64,000 bases of DNA from Bugula neritina (taxonomy: Eukaryota > Bryozoa > Gymnolaemata > Cheilostomatida > Bugulidae), in contig OZ037765.1 of the NCBI GenBank assembly GCA_964035545.1, positions 22,700,495-22,764,494 on the forward strand. The letters run 5' to 3'. Below, piece after piece: positions 14,601-25,452 of this stretch (the stretch's first letter is position 1; the number at the start of each line of letters is the position of its first letter). The notes under the pieces were generated by a model. The model made no database searches, was not told the DNA's origin, and worked only from the letters and a program-made list of their open reading frames with translations. Both the position numbers and the translations under genes were made by a program.

Positions 14601-17077
14601 CTAGGAGTCATAATCCCTCTGAATACCATTAAACCTTGGAAACAGGTAAAGTTTTCTCATATGAGTGAGAGTATCCCAGACTACAACCAACTGTCCTCCA
14701 CTCTCTAGATTTCTATCTATACACAATTTTCTCACTTTAGTCTGTACCTGAACAAAGAGGAAAATCTCACTATTTATACCTCACTATACTATTTATATTC
14801 TCCCTCTACCCGAACAGGACGGAGCGGAGATAGGTGAGAAAAAAAAATCAAATTATATTCTGAATGACCAACGCCTAACACAAAAACATCTTTACTATGA
14901 CTCATAAAAATGGTGAACATTTTTAAACGAATTATCCATAAAGTCACATATAAAACTTGGTGTTGACAAAAAGAAAGCAGACACAATCTAACCGGCAAGT
15001 AAAAGTTATATCACATGACTGATAATAGAGACGGGTAACACCTCTATTATTAATACATTATTACAAAAACAAATTAAAAGTTAGATAATTGAAGAGAGTT
15101 AATCATAAAATCAATCCTTTGCAAGCAGCAGATATTACTTTGAGCCATTTTCAATTTGATGGACACTTCACTTTTTCATGTCTATAATTCTAATAAAAGG
15201 TAACCAAATTATTAATGTTAGACTTACCTGCTTGAATAGAGTGTGAAGATCATGGTGACAGGCATGTTTATACATAGAAGATACAAGAGCTCTAATCATT
15301 AGAGATCCATACCCAGGGTGAATCTTTGATATGAATGCTACAAAAAAACACAGAGTATCGTATGGCATATTCCAAACAGTATATAACTGTACATTACACA
15401 CAGTATAGTACTGTATATTACGCACAATATAATATTGTACTGGATTTTAACGCTCTAGTAGTTATATCGTGTCATTATTATAATTGACTTAGCGTAACTT
15501 TCTAAATACTGATTAGCTGTTGTAATTATAACTAAGCTCTTAGCGTAATGATTTTGAATTGCCTTCCTATTTTTATTGTTTGTTTTTAAGTTACTGTAAT
15601 AGTTTTTGGAGTTATGTTATGTTGAGATATATAAATAAGTATGTGAGCCGAAGCTCGTCCGAAGTCGGAGCCGAAGGCACGATGTCGGAAGGACTCTGTC
15701 CGAGATCGGGCAGAGTCCTTCCGACATCGTGCCTTCGGCTCTGAACTTCGTACGAGCTTCGGACCCCCACCAGTGGCAGGAATTTTTGCAGTATATAAGT
15801 GCGAGTTTTTCCAGTCTAAATCAGTACTGCACTGGAGCTGATACATGAAGGAACCAATAAAGACTACTAATTACAATTTATCAAAGACTCTTTATTCAAG
15901 AATAATAATTGGCATGCAGACTACTTAGTCTATTTTCATACAACCCGCAAAATCATAACAATATTGTATTGTGTTACTTACACTCCATGCTAGATTTCAC
16001 TACCAGCAGGTCATCATAATTCAGTCTAGTCATAGCCTTAGCATCTTTGTCTCCGGGAACTTTAGCAAGTTGAAGTGAGATACTTTGCGTCTCTTTCTTT
16101 TGAGGTTCCCCGATATCAAATCTGTCTACACCTCTTTCACCGTAATCACTCCTCTCTGTAACATAGATTGCACAACTTTTTGTTTACTTGAAATAATGAG
16201 TAGTCAATAATGTCTAATATGAAAAAATTAGACTACTAAAAATTGAATATAAGTTACCTAACATACTTTGAATGCCAACTATCAGAACAGGCAACTATAG
16301 GGTAACCACAAATAATCTTTAAAATATTACCTCCACTACACACTTCCAGTATAACAACCTTTGGTTTGCCAGCCATTCCTGTGAAGTTCAAAGGGGTCAG
16401 AAGGTCATACACATCTGTTAGTTTGACTCGTTTCAGGTCTGTACCACATATGTGGTTGTCCAGCCCTCCATGAGTCATTATAACCAACACATGACACCCC
16501 AGATCTTTGTGTTCCTCCTTTTCTACCTCAGATTTCACAGCAGACAGCATTTCCTACAAATTACCAGAAAGCAAAATATTGAAGAAAGAAGTCATATATT
16601 CTAGTCCTATTTCTATATCCTGAATTCATTTCAATAAACCACTATTAATGCTGATAGTAATAATAATACTGTTTTGATTTGTTTACTTTAGAAACTTGGT
16701 ATGCTAGCTAATGTTTATTCAAAATGTTAAACAACGCAGTTTAGTGTTGTTGGATTAACTTTCCTTAAGTTGAGACCTCAAAATGTAGAAAATAGTAAAC
16801 CCCAAAACATTACTTTGATATTATATAGCCAGATATTTTGATGTACTTTTTAACCTCTAGCAGAGAGAGTCACACTTAATTTAAGTAAAGCAGCAGCAAA
16901 AAATACCTCTGCCTTCAGGTCTGTGTGTGTCACAACATCAAACTTAAGAGTTTTCAACATGGCAGACATATTCTCAACGTCCACATCTGAACCTTTCCTA
17001 CACAAATCTGGTCTCTTAACAAAGTTCATGTTGTTTATTATCAGAGCTCTTCCTCTCTTTCTAGTCATATTAAACAC
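14601..17077 (-). other. Caspase module of the fusion gene (p20 and p10 exons)
   Basis: Exons 17077-16907 (RGRALIINNMNF, then GSDVDVENMSAML and DVVTHTDLKAE), 16553-16331 (HVLVIMTHGGLDNHICGTD and KPKVVILEVCSGG), 16155-15982 (interdomain linker with several Asp, then NYDDLLVVKSSM), 15337-15228 (FISKIHPGYGSLMIRALVSS, then HHDLHTLFKQ) and 14702-14601 (DTLTHMRKLYLFP, stop). This is a complete caspase fold in the usual order. The active-site pentapeptide is EVCSG instead of QACxG, and the position of the p10 S1-pocket Arg reads Ile if FISKIH is aligned with the usual YVSWRN. Catalytic His and Cys are present. Substrate preference is therefore uncertain. Confidence 0.8.
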
Positions 17078-20000
17078 CTATATAACAGAGAAATACTTGT
17101 AACTTCTGAACTGTGCGCTAAAACTACACATAGTAAAAGAAACTCACGCAAGAGAACCCTTGATGGAAAAGATTTTTGTAAAATCGGGCTAAGGACTTAT
17201 TCAGATGAGACACAGGAGCAATTACGACTGGATGCTCTTCTTAAAATTAGCAATGGCATTTCTTGTGGGGTTCGAACCCATGACTTGGTGTTTACTAAGC
17301 AAGCACGCCATGGTCTAGGGGTCTAAACTACAGATAGTAAAATTAGGGAATACTACCATTAGATAGGATCACCTTATCAGTGTTTGAGAACAGCTGTTTT
17401 ATTTTTGGGTTAATTGTTGGATTTAGTCTAAGTCTTATAAACTTCATTTCTTCAACTTCCTTTTCATCAGGGTACAGATTGTCATCATTATCAGAGAGAT
17501 CACTCAGATCATCATTGGCTGCTCCAGTGGTAGTTGCAAGATCTGATTGGCTACTGTTGCTAACTACAAAATACAAATTCATACACATTATTACTTAGTT
17601 ACAAAGGATAAAAAAGAAATATTATGTAATAAAGGTCAGCAGGTTGGTAGTTAGCTGTAATGCAGGCATTTTTGTGGTAAAATCAGTAATTATTTGGATT
17701 GATTACTTAACCAGTTCCAAGTTGTTTTTTTAGCAGCATTTAAAGAACACATGCTTGCAAAAACAGGTCATTTTGTATTTACCAGAACTAGTTGAGATTT
17801 CTTCAGCCCTGCGGGTATTCAGTTTATCCACAAATTCCTCCAACCTATCAGCTTCTCTATCAGACAGTGTTTCACCTGAAACAGCGAAATATTTCAGTTG
17901 AGTGCCGTGCAATTGTCCTTATTATTCTGAATATATTATTAAGAAATTAGGAGAATTAACTTAACTACTCTCTATAAAACAGACATGCAGTAAATTGCAG
18001 TCATGGATTTATTCTACAGACACTGCAACACAATGTAAGCAAACATACATGGGTAAAGCAAAGCACTGGGTATCTCCTCATCACCACACAGAGTTTTTGA
18101 AGATCCGCTACACAGCCTGGCCTTTTTTGGCAGAATTTTTAAAGAACGGAGGCACCACTGAGGCCGTGACACTTTCTTAGGACAAGGAAGTCCTAGCAGC
18201 AAGCAGTGAGCACAGTAGCATGTAGGAACTGGTCTACTTGCTTTCCAGATTTCTAGAACATGTCTGAGGATGTTGTTGCTGGTGGTGATAAGTCTCTCCC
18301 ACATTCTGCTGACCTTGGCAGCATTAGATGACACATAGAGCAACACCTTTCTAGATTTGTAGTCATGAACCAGCTGTGTGCAGATTTCATCTTGATAGAC
18401 ATTGGCTCCATTTCTCTTCACTTTAATAACAGCAGGGTCATCTGGAAACATCTCCAACAAGCCAACAGTCATCTGGTGGAAGACATAGTGTGGCAGAGCT
18501 AGACCATTGAATTGTGTCTCAATGCAGAGGAACAGGTTTTTAGGTGAAGAGTAGGAAATGTTGTAGAAATTTCTAGCAAACTGAGGTACAATAAACCATG
18601 GCTCTTCAAACTCGACATGTATTGGACCATACAGCAAACGGAATGTTTTAAGTAAGCAGACTGCGACTTCAACATCCTGAAAGCTGTTAAATAGTGTTTC
18701 TTTCTCAATCAAATAAAAAAGAAGACATTCCATCATCAAGCCAGTGTCAGTAAAACGACTAACCGAATCCTCGAAGTCCTGCTTCTCAACACCCATTCCA
18801 GTCTTTGAATAGTATGGCTGGAACTTGTCAACTCTACTCTGCCATATGTCGGGATCATGATGATACAGGACACATAGAAGTTTAGTGACTTCTGTAATCT
18901 TGTGGAATATGTATGGCTGGAGAGAATTGATATCTTTATACCACAAGACTTTGCCACAGTCATGCATGTATGTGAGAATTATGTCCAGCTGACTTGATTC
19001 AATGTGCTGAAGTTCTGTCTGTACGACTTTCAGTATTTCATCAAAAGTGCTGAACACAGAGGGGATAGAGAGAACTTTTTCATTCACTTCCTCCCAGACT
19101 GAAGGCAGATCTTTGACAAAATGTTTACTGTTTTGAAGAAGAGAATCTTTGATCAGGTCATAAACTTCATACTTGTCATCTTTCCCCACGCCATAAATGC
19201 CCTCCTCAAGAAAAACTTTGCCAGCTGATTCACTGAAATGTTTGATTTGAGCGAATTCTCCACCCAATGCCTTCTCTTCCCTAATAATCTCTTCACACAG
19301 CTGATTCGAAGTTTCCAGAAAGTTCTTGCGAATCCTCTGAAATTCTGCATCTTGAAACTTATCTTTATGAGTAAAGATAAGTTTTGATGAACCCAGATTT
19401 GGATTAGAGAGATAGAGGTGAGACATGTAATCAAAAGCCAATCTTCTAACAGCCTCTCTGTGTGTAGATTCCTTTGAAATTTTGCTATACTGTTCCATGT
19501 TGACTACAATGACTGGAATGCAATTCTGTCTTAGTGTTAGTTGATAGGTTATATGGTAGACCTCCTGGCCTCCCATATCAATGAGACGGAGTACTGTACC
19601 ATCCACCTCAACCTCCTCAACATTAAACACCTTTGTTGTCTCATCTATCACAGCATTTGGATCTCTGTTGGTCAACACTCTTCTTCTGTCAGCATTCTGT
19701 AATGTTCTGATTAGACTTGTTTTCCCAGCCATCGTATTACCCAGCACAGCTATTGTGGCAAATGGAATGTTTTTACCAGCACCTTTAGCCAAGTCTGTGT
19801 AATATTGTCTCACAGCATCTACTCCTCTCTTGCATACTTCTAGTGGAGGGGATGTGAGAGCATTACAACCTTTCACCACCAGGTTAAAAAGTTGAGTTAA
19901 TTGGAATATTTTAGAATCTAAGGATGCCAGAGAGTGATTGCTGGATATATTCAGTTCTCGCAGACTACTCAATGTGTACACTGAAGGTGGTAAACTGGTG

Positions 20001-23000
20001 AAGTTATTGTATGATATGTGAAGTGTTTCTAACTTCTGTAGACTTTGTATGCTGAAAAATATGAAATATAATTGGAGTTGTATAAATGGTTTCACACAAA
20101 AATAAATATTAAAATTCCATCAATTACATTATAATAAACTGCTACAATGCATATACGTACATAGCTGAGCAATGCATAATAAAATAATCATAATTCATAA
20201 TTAGGAGTTATACTTCCAGTTACTGAGTACAGCATAGCATGTAAATAAGAGAATGCATTACATAACAGTAACAGTAGAACTAAATTTTATTGGTGCAGCA
20301 TTAGAATACATCTCAGTATAGCAACCCTGTGAGATCATGTATTAAATAAACACGGTTGAAATTGATTGTTTTGGTAGTTGTTTTCCAGTCAAAACATTAC
20401 TAAAAAAATTTAATATTATTCAACATTATATTATATAATATTTAGATGAGTTTTAGTATAACTCATTTATTAAAGAAATAATTTATTAAAGACACGAGTT
20501 TCTATCAGAATACACCTACTACTAGGTTTCGTACTGTTTATATTATGACTCATTACCTACTAGCAACTCAGATTCCACTCGTAAATACTCTAACTGTAAA
20601 TTCAGCAGACTACAGTAGTTTTCTTATGACAAGGAATCTAGTCGACTGAGTCAAGTAAAAAAAAAGGCAGATAACCCTGTAACATATCATAGTACTGCAC
20701 CTGTTTGATAGAGTTTTTAATAGAGTTACATTATAACAGAAACATTTTGAACTATAATATAACACGCACCTGTTTGGTAGAGTCACCAGTTCACAGTCCC
20801 TCATGTCCAACTCTTTCAGTGATACTAAGGATGTGAATGTATTGTCAGGTAGACCTTCAGGTAGCTTAATATCTGATATATCCAACACCTCAAGATTCTT
20901 CAGTAAGGATATGCTGTAATGTAGCATAGTGCATACACATATGAAATTGTGCATATTATCATACTTTATAGGAATATAATTATTTGATACAACGTATTAA
21001 ACACTATGTGGGGCACACATGCACTACACAAGATACTTCAAGTATTAAAAATTTGTACTATAGGTCACTGTATACTGCAATATAATAATTTATTTATGGC
21101 CTGTAATATTTGTTACAGTACAATACTGCACTATATTATGATACACACCTGTTTGGTAGTGTTGGTAAGTTACAGTGACCTATGTTCAACTCTCTCAGTA
21201 ATAGTAAGGATGTGAATATATTGTCAGGTAGACCTTCGGATAAGTGATTCCCCAATAGACCCAATACCTCCAGATTTTTCAGTAAAGATATACTGTAACA
21301 TAACATGTATATGGAAATAAAATCATGTATAATTTTCAAGTAAGAATATAGCGACGGCATGCAACTGACTGAACTTCTAATCAAATCTATTTATACGGGC
21401 AATATTTTGAGCATTTTCATCCATCTTAATGTCACGCACACATAGACTGCACAATATTTCTCAGAGATGGTTAAAAAAACATGGGAAATGAAAAAAACCG
21501 GTGGCTGAAAAAGTCAGACGAACTTCAGAATTTTGCAAATCAAAACATGAATATATAGAGTTCTTCGCTGTGAATAAGAAGCTATATGGACTGTTTAACA
21601 AGGAGATAAGAACTATAAGGTGCAAGGACAAAGAAAGGATCAAGAAGGTTGATTGTCAAAAATTAGACTTTATTAAAACAAATTTAATGGAATAAACATA
21701 TATCTTACTCATTTTTGGAGGAACTGACATGCAAAGTACACATGTATTGTAAAATCTACTCCAACTATATTGTTCTAGCAATTATGTAGGTTATGAATTA
21801 CTACTGTATAGTAAGCATTGTCTTGCCTTATTCTATAACATACATATGTAATTGTATTCATACTTGTTTGGTAGAGTTTTCAGTTTACAGTACCACATGT
21901 TTAACTTTCTCAATGACAGTAAGGATGTGAATATATTGTCAGGTAGACCTTCGGATAGGTCATTGCCATATATATTCAATACCTCAAGATCCTTCAGTGA
22001 AGATAGGCTGTAATATAACATAAAGGTATATTACAATGATTTAAATAAATATAATCATTTGATACTATACATGTAATAAATGCTGATAGCAAAATGTGTA
22101 CAATTCAAGTCACTTCAAATATATGAAAGTACATTATAAGCTTCCACGCAGTTATATTAACAACACTTATAACTTATATTTGTTACAGTATTATTATGGA
22201 GTCCAGGGCGGTCCAACAGTTGGCTCCAGGGCCGGATGCAGCCCCAGACTAAATCTATGTGGACTCTAGGGATCTAGAAAATAAAATTATTTTGCCTGAG
22301 TGTGTATATATAAATTGGAGTGGAAAATCCACTATTTAGATTTTTTATTCATATGCATGAAATAAAAGATGGGACTTCATTGTGTAATTATTCATAGAAA
22401 TTTGAAATAAAGTATATTGGAAAATGCTGATGTCATGGCCCTAGCTAAAGCTAAATTTTAAATTAAAGGGGCCCTTGCCACTGAACTAATCCATTTCAGT
22501 GACCCTCGTTCTGAAAAGGCTGGACACCCTTGTTCTACAATTTAATACAATACACACCTGTTTGGTAAAGTTACCAGTTTACAGTTTTCCATGTCCAACT
22601 TTTTTAGAGATAATAATGATGCGAATATATTGTCAAGCGGTTTCCAGCAGAGGTCATTTCCCGATATATCCAATACTTCAAGATTCTTCAGCGAAGATAT
22701 GCTGTAATACAACATAAAAATTAATACTTTTAGAGCTTTATAGTATATATTTATCATTCTACACTATAATATAACACACGCCTGTTTGGTAGAGTTAAGA
22801 GTTGACAATCCTGCATGTGCAACTCTATCAATGATGGTAAAGATGTGAATATATTGTCAGGTAGACCTTCAGATAGGTTATTCTCTGATATATTCAATAT
22901 CGCAAGATTCTCCAGAGAGAAGATGCTGCAACCAACATATAACATACAGGTATAAAATAATTGTAATCAATTTAATTACCAAATATTATTTTGGTTGAAG

Positions 23001-25452
23001 GAGATTAATCAACTTGAAATTAAATTGATCGTAAATTAAAATACAATGAATCAGATAAATAACACATTTGTTACTAAAGCTAGTGTTATTGTGAAGGGAG
23101 ATGACATTACATTCCATCTAATACTAATAGCACCTTCTATGATTATAGCTTTATATTACAACTGGTCAAGTCAAGACCAGTTCTGTTCCTGCTATCGGTA
23201 AGTATACATGTAAACTGGTACCACCCGTGGCATGCCCTCCCCTGTTTTAATTTGAGAGGCTTTAAGGGTGCTGAGACACCCTTGGATTGATGTTGCTTGT
23301 AGACAATAGAGCAAGACACAGATTGATAGAAAACCAACAATTTAGTTACTTTCCAACAGAAAAAATCCAGCCACAACCCACATAGATTCATCACACCTCT
23401 GTGGTAAATAAGGTCACACATGCTTCTCCTGCTAATTAGCAACCAATACCCATACCAAACCAACAAAACTGTGTGATGTACATTTTGGGACTTTCTGCTT
23501 TTTATCGCTCTCAACATGCTTTTGTTTATTAGTTTATTACTTTGTTAACTTTCTTGAGTACATTTTATCTGTTATATCTTTGGTTACAAAGTTTTGCTTT
23601 GCAATATAACAACATTATACCTGGCCCAGTCAGCTTTACTGTCTACTTCATATAGTCTTAGATGTGTCAGGTGGGGAAACAGAGTGTTGATATTTGGAGG
23701 AATGTCGTACTTCAGTATAACATGAGTAACTGTATGATGTCTACTTATATCATTGATCTCTTCTATAGTGTAGTGCCTAGTGTCATTCTCCATCCACTCA
23801 CCCTCGTCAGCTTCATCTATACTGGACGTGTTGAACCACATCCTGAACTTCTCTACAAAATAATATGTACCAGTTTAAAAATAACAATTTTGATAACCTA
23901 TAACAGAATTTTTAACACTATATACAGTATTAGCTTTATCTATGATGGAAGTGGTAAACTATAACATAATAGTAATAATTTTCTAAAAGTTATGCTACTT
24001 TTTATGTTGTAAATACTTAAGAATAAATTGTTGAACAAATTGAAATCCTGTGACATATTTGAGTGTATTTTCAGATTTTATCCACTTTGTCAAACTATGT
24101 ATAACCTAGCAGCATGACTCAACCTTGTAACTGGTGCAGCAGTAGCATACTACAGCAGCTGAGAGGGTAGCCATGTTGTTCATAATTCTGTACAGAATGT
24201 GTTGTATTACAAAATATTAGGCAAAACAATAATAATATATATTACAATATAGGTCAGTGTGATAATATAACACAAAATAATATAATATAGATGGGTAGAA
24301 CAACTATATTGCAATATAATATAGGCAAGTACAATAATATAACATTATATAATACATTATAATGTATGTCAGTATAATGATTTTATTATAATGTCGGTCA
24401 CTATGATATAACATAACAAGCACTAACAAATATGTAATACAACCAATAGCTGTAGTCAGAACACAACTCTAAGGAAAGTATCTATATTTCCTATTCCACA
24501 GATATTTACTAGAGCTAGACCCTATTGAAAAACAAGCAATTCAACAGCTAGCTCGCTGATACTAAACCACAACACCCTATGATGCCTTTCTTTAAGACTT
24601 TTATCTTGTGTCATACACACATAACATAAAAATTAATAGATTGGTTAGAAGTGACAACGGTACTAAGTGGTGTTAATCACGCTCACTGTCGTGATCTTTG
24701 CTGCCTTTTGATTGGCTGGTTCAGCCGAATATTGGGGAGAAATTGACCATGCTCAATTGTGAAAATCGGGCGAAAATTCAGCAAAAAGCAAAATCGGCCA
24801 ATAAATCTTGTGACCTAACAAATTTGGCCGACAGTTTTTCGGCAGATTTTGTTGCAAAATCAGCCTACGTACATGCAGCTTGAAAGATAGTACTTTTAGC
24901 AGAAGCATAGAGCTATCTATGTAAAGCTGTAAAACATTCATAGCCAAGAAATGTAGCACCAAAGCTTCAATATACAATTACCAGAACATACAAATACAAC
25001 TAAGCGATTGCATCAAACATAACATACATGACTAGTCATAAAAGTGTCTTCAAGTTTCTTTTTTCCAAAGTTTACTATGAGGAAATGTTTTTAAAAAAAT
25101 TACTGAAACACAAATACATGTGCTACTACCAAAATATATCTCTCCTAGAATAAGAATTTCATAGCATAGTTTGGATTTTAAGCAGCAGTAAAATTTTGAG
25201 ATGTTAATGAACTATTTCTATATGATTAGGTCAAAGGCTATACCTGCTAATGGAATACAACTCCTAATTATAAAATAAGTATAAGGGACATGGGAAACCA
25301 GTCTCTAAAAGTATCAGATCAAGGTTCACTCATATAATTTCTATAGTTACTGGTTGAAGTATTTTTATATTTTACTAACTTATCACGGATTTCTCTGGAG
25401 GTGGAGTTGGAGGTGAAGTTTGAGGTTGAGGCACAGATTTATGTTGACTCAT
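14601..25452 (-). CDS. LRR-Roc-COR GTPase fused to a caspase domain, 1363 aa
   Basis: Fifteen minus-strand exons: 25452-25380, 23852-23621, 22925-22782, 22701-22558, 22007-21864, 21292-21149, 20913-20770, 20051-18049, 17875-17783, 17563-17373, 17077-16907, 16553-16331, 16155-15982, 15337-15228, 14702-14601. Every junction keeps phase and the total is 4092 nt. Domains: proline-rich start (MSQHKSVPQPQTSPPTPPP, aa 1-24); leucine-rich repeats about aa 70-415; Roc GTPase with Walker A GNTMAGKT (446-453), DMGG (500-503) and THKD (569-572); COR region about 620-960 ending in a Cys-rich CYCAHCLLLGLPC segment; acidic linker; caspase p20 from about 1105 with His1189 (MTHGG) and Cys1233 (EVCSGG); p10 ending KLYLFP. 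Roc-COR modules act as GTP-dependent dimer switches; caspases are Asp-specific proteases activated by proximity. Inference: ligand or stress sensing by LRR, switching by Roc-COR, proteolysis by the caspase. Weakest junctions: the first intron and 17373/17077. Confidence 0.8.
15648..15762. repeat. GC-rich foldback element, 51-bp arms
   Basis: Arms 15648-15698 and 15711-15762 are almost perfect reverse complements (CCGAAGCTCG...GGACTCTG and CAGAGTCC...CGAGCTTCGG) around a 12-nt loop. It lies in the intron between the last two p10-region introns (15982/15337) and is far richer in GC than its surroundings. Likely a small foldback transposon. Confidence 0.8.
17145..17330 (-). mobile_element. tRNA-Thr-derived SINE in an intron
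   Basis: On the minus strand the head reads like a tRNA: CTTGCTTAGTAAACA (anticodon-loop AGT) followed by the B-box GGGTTCGAACCCC. The body then contains AGAGCATCCAGTCGTAATTG, CTCCTGTGTC and CTTAGCCCG, the part shared with 44632-44716. Sits in the intron between the linker exon (17373) and the first caspase exon (17077). Confidence 0.65.
18049..20051 (-). other. Single 2003-nt exon encoding last LRRs, Roc and COR
   Basis: One uninterrupted exon, far longer than any other in the window. It starts in an LRR (SLQKLETLHISYNNFTSLPP), passes through the full Roc P-loop, DxGG and TKxD-type motifs, the COR region, and ends after IPSALLYP at a GTATGT donor. An intronless GTPase-COR exon next to finely split LRR exons suggests these parts had different origins or histories of intron loss. 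Confidence 0.85.
20698..20728 (-). pseudogene. Remnant of an LRR exon 3' end
   Basis: Plus-strand GCACCTGTTTGATAGAGT matches the donor-end signature shared by the five LRR exons (CACCTGTTTGGTAGAGT), but the rest of the exon is not recognisable. Lies just 3' of LRR exon 5 in the intron before the Roc exon. Short, so could be chance. Confidence 0.4.
20770..22925 (-). repeat. Tandem array of five 144-nt LRR exons
   Basis: Exons 22925-22782, 22701-22558, 22007-21864, 21292-21149 and 20913-20770 are each exactly 144 nt, each starts with the third base of a Ser/Asn codon and ends with its first two bases, and each encodes two LRRs built on S-x-LKNLEVL-x-I-x-N-x-L, EGLPDNIFTSL, L-x-ELxM and LxTLPN. 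Because all are symmetric (phase 2 in and out), any number can be included or skipped without frame change. Clear tandem exon duplication. Confidence 0.9.
22204..22532. mobile_element. hAT-like non-autonomous element
   Basis: The left end CAGGGCGGTCCAAC and the reverse complement of the right end CAAGGGTGTCCAGC resemble hAT termini; the right part reads, on the minus strand, as GTGTCCAGCCTTTTCAGAACG. Terminal match is imperfect and no 8-bp target duplication was found. Lies in an intron between LRR exons 2 and 3. Confidence 0.45.
24230..24400. repeat. Degenerate AATATAATATAGGTCAGT-type repeats
   Basis: Several drifted copies of a roughly 60-bp unit containing ATAATATAGG(T/C)A(G/A)T and GATAATATAACA, in intron 2 region of the fusion gene (between 23852 and 25380). 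Confidence 0.5.
25035..25295 (+). repeat. Dispersed repeat, copy in intron 1 of the fusion gene
   Basis: Inverted partner of 6620-6885. Includes GCTACTACCAAAATA, CATAGCATAGTTTGGATTTT and the ACCTGCTAATGGAATACAAC end that also appears next to the transposon near 11862. Confidence 0.6.

Follow-up and report, generated by a model that had tools for sequence, protein, structure and literature searches.

A gene encoding LRRs, a Roc-COR GTPase, and a caspase in Bugula neritina

The stretch of Bugula neritina DNA that we analyzed (here, the window) is 64,000 nucleotides (nt) long and carries, between 25452 and 14601, a gene of 15 minus-strand exons. When re-derived from the DNA, these exons splice into a single open frame of 1378 amino acids, with a start ATG at 25452 and a stop codon ending at 14601 on the minus strand. 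All 14 introns end in AG; 13 of them begin with GT, and the one after exon 3 begins with GC. The domain order runs from LRRs through Roc-COR and the linker exons to a complete caspase, laid out as a short N terminus, a cap, five 144-nt LRR exons, a 2-kb LRR/Roc/COR exon, two linkers, and five caspase exons. The exons and the evidence for each are as follows.

25380..25452, minus strand: exon 1, start codon, MSQHKSVP... (pattern match and nucleotide similarity to a paralog)
23621..23852, minus strand: exon 2, N-terminal cap preceding the LRRs (exon of paralog L054 70% identical)
22782..22925, minus strand: exon 3, LRR cassette, 144 nt, GC donor (gene model and cassette set)
22558..22701, minus strand: exon 4, LRR cassette, 144 nt (gene model and cassette set)
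21864..22007, minus strand: exon 5, LRR cassette, 144 nt (gene model and cassette set)
21149..21292, minus strand: exon 6, LRR cassette, 144 nt (gene model and cassette set)
20770..20913, minus strand: exon 7, LRR cassette, 144 nt (gene model and cassette set)
18049..20051, minus strand: exon 8, last LRRs, Roc GTPase, and COR, with the 3' donor to the caspase part (Pfam, PDB, Foldseek)
17783..17875, minus strand: exon 9, linker (gene model, paralogs)
17373..17563, minus strand: exon 10, linker, acidic and serine rich, SDLSDxDxxLYPD (genome matches, dN/dS, Watersipora counterpart)
16907..17077, minus strand: exon 11, first part of the caspase large subunit, RGRALIINN and CRKGSD (Pfam, homology)
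16331..16553, minus strand: exon 12, caspase large subunit, containing MTHGG (catalytic His) and EVCSG (catalytic Cys) (133 genome matches)
15982..16155, minus strand: exon 13, linker between the caspase subunits (gene model, homology)
15228..15337, minus strand: exon 14, caspase small subunit, HPGYGSLMI, with Ile at the S1 Arg position (homology)
14601..14747, minus strand: exon 15, end of the caspase small subunit and stop (gene model, homology)

A single fused LRR-Roc-COR-caspase gene had been proposed in an earlier note on this DNA and is borne out by these 15 exons in one open frame. Each of the three junctions that the note had named between COR and caspase (18049/17875, 17783/17563, and 17373/17077) was reproduced exactly. 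Its length of 1363 residues is replaced by 1378, so one or more junctions beyond these three must differ between the two models. The Roc motifs that it had called intact can be read directly as the P-loop GNTMAGKTS, DMGGQ, and THKD, and those of the caspase as MTHGG and EVCSG. We rejected a pseudogene reading of the window copy because the 1378-amino-acid frame is open. Three features described below go beyond the earlier note: LRR cassettes that show signs of diversifying selection, a changed S1 pocket, and a myristoylation-like N terminus in relatives.

The intron between exons 13 and 14 contains a long hairpin (15648-15762) with 39-nt arms that are 95% complementary and 2 nt apart. It also has outer arms of 18 nt and resembles a small mobile element.

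Domain assignments in the window protein

Pfam searches with the joined 1378-amino-acid chain identified LRR_8 (7.6e-23), Roc (PF08477; 9.8e-7, at 29.5 bits above the cutoff of 27), and Peptidase_C14 (PF00656; 9e-37). At E values up to 0.01, the chain has no Pfam match to a NACHT or NB-ARC ATPase, and its switch is Roc; at the same threshold there is none to a CARD, PYD, or Death adaptor domain, which are effector domains in many NLRs, though not in all. The Roc columns GKTS, DxGG, and T-H-x-D are invariant across eight aligned sequences.

The COR domain falls under the cutoff of the profile PF16095 (COR-A) in the window copy (15.8 versus 35.3 bits). It is backed by sequence similarity to PDB chain 4wnr, a Methanosarcina Roc-COR (8e-5), and by structure prediction for exon 8, which gave a model of moderate confidence (mean pLDDT, 63). 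The best 22 Foldseek matches of this model in the PDB are Roco proteins throughout (query TM-scores, 0.22 to 0.45) and include LRRK1, LRRK2, the C. tepidum structures 6hlu, 3dpu, and 3dpt, and 4wnr. Similarity and model thus support a predicted COR domain directly after Roc.

The caspase of the window copy is present at full length with both p20 and p10, exons 14 and 15 having been identified by homology. Among the best 60 of 180 matches, its nearest PDB relatives are ancestral caspase-3/6/7, CED-3, caspase-9, and other caspases.

The fusion recurs in a large gene family

What had been described as a single gene belongs instead to a very large family, with at least 84 Roc-COR loci in the B. 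neritina genome. A genome search with the window Roc-COR exon gave at least 75 matches (75 of 117 candidates scored), and one with a Roc-COR from the cheilostome bryozoan Watersipora subatra gave at least 74 (74 of 112 candidates scored). The latter included nine that were absent from the first list; these extra loci were found by comparing both match lists by eye and were then paired with caspase exons.

Of the 84 Roc-COR exons, 81 are followed, less than 8 kb downstream and on the same strand, by a caspase exon. Among the first 75, caspase exon 12 occupies this position in 72, compared with one in the upstream control and none in the other-strand control; this colinearity rules out that Roc-COR and caspase genes are neighbors by chance. 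All nine extra loci have their caspase exon 1.2 to 2.5 kb downstream, and in the remaining three loci it lies 10.6 to 15.4 kb downstream, again on the same strand. Linker exon 10, which has 75 genome matches with E values no higher than 0.1 (for 62 of these, no higher than 0.001), lies within 8 kb in 59 of the 75 genes, and it sits between COR and caspase in all 57 of the 75 in which both were found. The splice donor of the COR exon is identical in position in 30 of 30 loci, window copy included, and the last caspase exon could be located in 13 of the 15 caspase stretches examined. Two of the first 75 Roc-COR exons carry a single stop codon, whereas the 72 linked copies of caspase exon 12 are all free of stops. 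In one paralog, an apparent open frame of 2363 amino acids turned out to be a stretch of N and was discarded as a gene.

Two clusters hold 54 of the 84 loci: the one at C1:32.5-35.5 Mb has 24, and the one at C6:2.5-6.3 Mb has 30. The window copy stands apart from both, at C1:22.7 Mb.

Caspase exon 12 has 133 matches in the genome, 61 of which lie farther than 8 kb from every Roc-COR exon in the first list. These 61 comprise the nine extra loci, the three long-distance loci, and 49 others. Near these 49 there is no Roc-COR exon of either list; they may be more divergent members of the family or caspases without the fusion. Because Peptidase_C14 as a family gives 176 genome matches, caspases are expanded in this genome in general.

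A second subfamily (L007, L040, and L049), with HACSG or QACSG at the active site, is 76 to 82% identical to the window copy in Roc-COR and 43 to 47% identical in exon 12. The two halves of these genes thus have partly separate histories, and the sequences hint at a possible exchange of modules.

Relatives in Watersipora and variation at the N terminus

The fusion is also found in Watersipora subatra, in which seven annotated proteins have LRRs, Roc-COR, and a caspase in one chain. In P0001 to P0005, all parts were read letter by letter; in P0007 and P0008, the fusion is given by profile coverage and a listed C14 domain. P0006 ends early in the caspase, and no C14 domain is listed for P0009 or P0031. 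Several of these relatives are named by NCBI after MFHAS1. The Watersipora linker has in common with the window linker an acidic SDxSD motif and the residues preceding the caspase. A full-length predicted model of a Watersipora relative (pLDDT, 51) is too weak to show how the domains meet. The earlier note had held that absence of the fusion from all relatives would speak against it; such absence is contradicted by the 81 of 84 paralogous loci and by Watersipora.

Among the best 7993 candidates scored in a profile search, 48 matches had E values of 2.3e-127 or better, followed by P0055 at 5.7e-12. Within these candidates, and with the limited sensitivity of protein searches to other phyla, the full fusion was found outside B. 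neritina only in Watersipora. Roc-COR exons of the family are also carried by metagenome proteins (jgi, ena, and lgn), one of which, P0010, is 95% identical to the window copy.

A search with an N-terminal codon pattern, which restricts position 2 to Gly, Ser, or Arg and would miss other first exons, gave nine genome matches, and a reversed-pattern control gave none. Eight of the nine read MGQRKSVP; the window copy alone has Ser at position 2 and so lacks Gly2. The window start codon is supported because eight other ATGs share this N-terminal motif, and six of the eight MGQRKSVP starts lie upstream of listed Roc-COR exons. We take MGQRKSVP to be a myristoylation-like start, and the Watersipora proteins P0002 (MGAKSS) and P0004 (MGCSLS) begin likewise; the annotated starts of P0001, P0003, P0005, and P0006 are different. 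Some relatives are therefore likely to be anchored to a membrane, which is doubtful for the window copy.

Two MGQRKSVP first exons, at C1:34350104 and C1:34364156, have no listed Roc-COR within 30 kb downstream, and LRR cassettes follow the one at C1:34350104. Both may belong to incomplete genes.

The LRR face changes faster than the switch and the protease

We examined 32 distinct LRR cassettes, a set built from gap-free matches only, which favors 144-nt exons. All are 144-nt phase-2 exons with AG acceptors (32/32), and their donors are GT in 31 and GC in one. Cassette number varies by gene, from five in the window copy to nine or more ahead of the gene at C5:17.31 Mb (150 of 569 candidates). 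The divergent cassettes L036 and L038 were excluded from the entropy and dN/dS analyses. In the 30 cassettes that remained, mean entropy was 1.61 bits at positions expected on the concave face versus 0.39 bits at the others (permutation p, 1.5e-4).

Pooled over all pairs, which is not a likelihood or formal selection test and treats cassettes that are not independent within a gene, dN/dS was 1.71 (bootstrap, 1.22 to 2.53) at the expected concave (binding-face) LRR positions and 0.59 (0.46 to 0.84) elsewhere in the cassette. The corresponding values were 0.25 for Roc-COR (23 sequences), 0.24 for exon 11 (15 sequences), 0.33 for exon 12 (9 sequences), and 0.46 for linker exon 10 (15 sequences); linker exon 9 is weakly constrained at 0.78 (6 sequences). 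These parts were compared in loci numbered no higher than L037 that had the most frequent length and an ungapped identity of 55% or more with the window copy, which kept 23 of 29 for Roc-COR, 6 of 14 for exon 9, 15 of 15 each for exons 10 and 11, and 9 of 9 for exon 12; the second subfamily lies mostly outside the caspase figures. The LRR face is the sole tested part with dN/dS above 1. To judge from these sequence comparisons, a fast-changing recognition part joined to a constrained switch and protease is the pattern that an immune or recognition receptor would show.

The caspase active site and S1 pocket vary within the family

The catalytic His and Cys are both retained in 59 of the 72 Roc-COR-linked copies of exon 12, the window copy among them. 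The Cys is absent in 12 copies and the His in one; with one or the other missing in 13 of 72, protease activity appears to be dispensable in some members. The 12 Cys-less exons are possible pseudoproteases.

These exons (L043, L044, L070, L072 to L075, L077, L078, L095, L096, and L098) have open frames, and ten of the 12 are on contig C6.

The Asp-binding S1 pocket of caspases is formed by Arg, Gln, and Arg. Relative to CED-3, the window copy keeps the first Arg (CRKGSD), has Glu in place of Gln, and has Ile in place of the p10 Arg. Of the 60 Cys-bearing copies (of 72), 41 have Glu two residues before the Cys, 12 have His, and 7 have Gln. Small-subunit S1 residues were compared by eye in 15 copies, including that of the window. 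The S1 Arg position is Ile, Val, or Ser in all six EVCSG/ETCSG copies (window, L039, L041, L045, L051, and L053), and Arg is retained in all nine QACSG/HACSG/EACSG copies (L007, L040, L042, L046 to L050, and L052). QACSG occurs together with the S1 Arg in L040, L046, and L047. The Watersipora caspases have QACSG in five of five copies read, with Arg in four and Lys in one. Judged by these residues, the Asp-binding pocket is complete in L046, L047, and Watersipora P0001 to P0003 and P0005 and altered in the window copy.

This distribution suggests that substrate preference may have changed stepwise in part of the family, with the window copy at the derived end. Metacaspases and paracaspases prefer a basic P1 residue, and a similar preference in the altered copies would be a guess; cleavage specificity is not safely readable from sequence.

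A candidate receptor with its own protease

Caspases are activated by proximity, and animal immune caspases, as usually described, are switched on via separate sensors and adaptors. We consider it fairly probable that the family instead encodes single-chain receptors, in which the LRRs would sense, Roc-COR would switch, and the chain's own caspase would act, in immunity or in colony self/non-self recognition. The cassette LRRs would bind a ligand, and binding would alter the nucleotide state or dimerization of Roc-COR, a step modeled on Roco biochemistry as given in the available text of PMC6337361. Two C-terminal caspase domains would then meet and be activated by induced proximity, and the activated protease would cleave substrates; the outcome, directed at a pathogen or a foreign colony, would be death of the cell or a response of inflammatory type. 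N-Myristoylation would probably hold some members at the inner membrane. The link to immunity would follow from the expansion and diversification of the family and from analogy; allo-incompatibility in bryozoans is mentioned in the available part of PMC8195603.

A more specific version of this receptor model would make the family a repertoire of the bryozoans' own: dozens of genes, with varying and interchangeable 144-nt LRR cassettes, a GTPase switch, and a built-in caspase, would recognize pathogens or colony self and non-self, with mismatch leading to killing. Splicing or recombination could reassort the cassettes. We regard this version as speculative and, in its full form, rather unlikely.

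Other readings of these genes differ in what they make of the same evidence. Each locus could encode two proteins, with transcripts that stop in or after the COR exon and a separate caspase starting near 17.1 kb. An unspliced COR exon would indeed read on to a stop at 18014, and an early Met in exon 11 (VFNMTRK) could start a caspase. This is nevertheless very hard to reconcile with a COR-exon donor kept in 30 of 30 loci, with a linker exon 10 that has a dN/dS of 0.46 and lies in between in 57 of 57 genes with both found, and with the counterpart of that linker in single-chain Watersipora models, one of which (P0001) has no exon 11 Met; we think it highly improbable. An ordinary signaling or developmental Roco protein, multiplied by tandem duplication and with no role in recognition, would fit the varied functions of Dictyostelium Roco proteins (available text of PMC6337361) and the MFHAS1-derived names of several Watersipora proteins. 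At least 84 copies with unequal cassette numbers, and variation concentrated on an LRR face (p, 1.5e-4) that is the sole tested part with dN/dS above 1, make it improbable in our view.

The protease variation bears on a further alternative, in which the caspase would be a signaling protease of changed specificity, with few and perhaps non-Asp substrates, rather than a killer, and the inactive copies would serve as scaffolds or decoys. The preponderance of Glu (41) and His (12) over Gln (7) among the 60 Cys-bearing copies would agree with this, as would the Ile, Val, or Ser that replaces the S1 Arg in the window copy and five others and the loss of Cys in 12 and of His in one of 72 copies. Against it, QACSG and Arg persist together in L040, L046, and L047 and in Watersipora P0001, P0002, P0003, and P0005, and specificity cannot safely be read from such residues; we see it as possible but doubtful.

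If the single-chain receptor model is correct, the family would provide concrete candidate immunity or allorecognition genes for bryozoans, which are colonial animals, and its Roc-COR switch could be tested through a protease readout. The union of sensor, switch, and protease in one chain, at 84 or more loci and with a fast-changing recognition part, makes the family a strong candidate for a hitherto undescribed system of immunity or self-recognition in animals.

Comparison with known systems

In NLR inflammasomes and the PIDDosome, caspases are recruited via CARD or Death adaptors. The window family resembles these systems in LRR sensing (NLRs), a nucleotide switch, and caspase activation by proximity; it differs in having the protease in the same chain and in using Roc-COR rather than a STAND ATPase as the switch.

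The nearest architectural match is prokaryotic. According to the available text of PMC8195603, prokaryotic LRR-AP-GTPase-COR proteins carry a C-terminal effector of at least 24 kinds, caspase included, and are predicted to be counter-invader systems. The earlier note had put the gene forward as the best candidate for an undescribed system; as an architecture, this is not supported, given the publication of bacterial LRR-GTPase-COR proteins with a C-terminal caspase. Compared by description in the same partial source, both groups have the order LRR, GTPase, COR, effector and many paralogs per genome, whereas the bryozoan family lies in an animal genome and has a caspase in every member examined. 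That caspase is nearest to animal caspases (best 60 structures), and its LRRs come in 144-nt phase-2 cassettes, unlike in the prokaryotic systems.

Within the Roco proteins, MFHAS1/MASL1 and group 1 have the LRR-Roc-COR core in common with the window family (PMC6337361, available text). MFHAS1 consists of LRRs and Roc-COR only, and the window family adds a linker and a caspase. The same text states that COR mediates Roco dimerization and that Dictyostelium Roco proteins vary in cellular function; it gives a caspase to none of its three Roco groups and never uses the term. The TIR-ROCO proteins of Aplysia and sea anemones likewise join an animal Roc-COR to an immune domain, some of them with LRRs, but have TIR instead of a caspase, and few genes are described in the available portions of PMC9334734 and PMC5094078. 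A paper on bivalve caspases (PMC7836458) makes no mention of an LRR or COR domain in its available text. A search of mainly open-access literature brought up no animal LRR-Roc-COR-caspase. We therefore rate as new the animal family, its cassette LRRs, and its altered protease pocket, and as not new the domain logic.

Brown algal ROCO genes, proposed as immune receptors, also have phase-2 LRR cassettes, of 72 bp as opposed to 144 nt here, and are under diversifying selection (PMC11378527, as far as its text is available). They are LRR-ROC-COR only, and "caspase" has no occurrence in that text. The parallel of the bryozoan family with the bacterial LRR-GTPase-COR-effector proteins and with the cassette-LRR ROCOs of brown algae suggests that this design may have evolved or been reused more than once.
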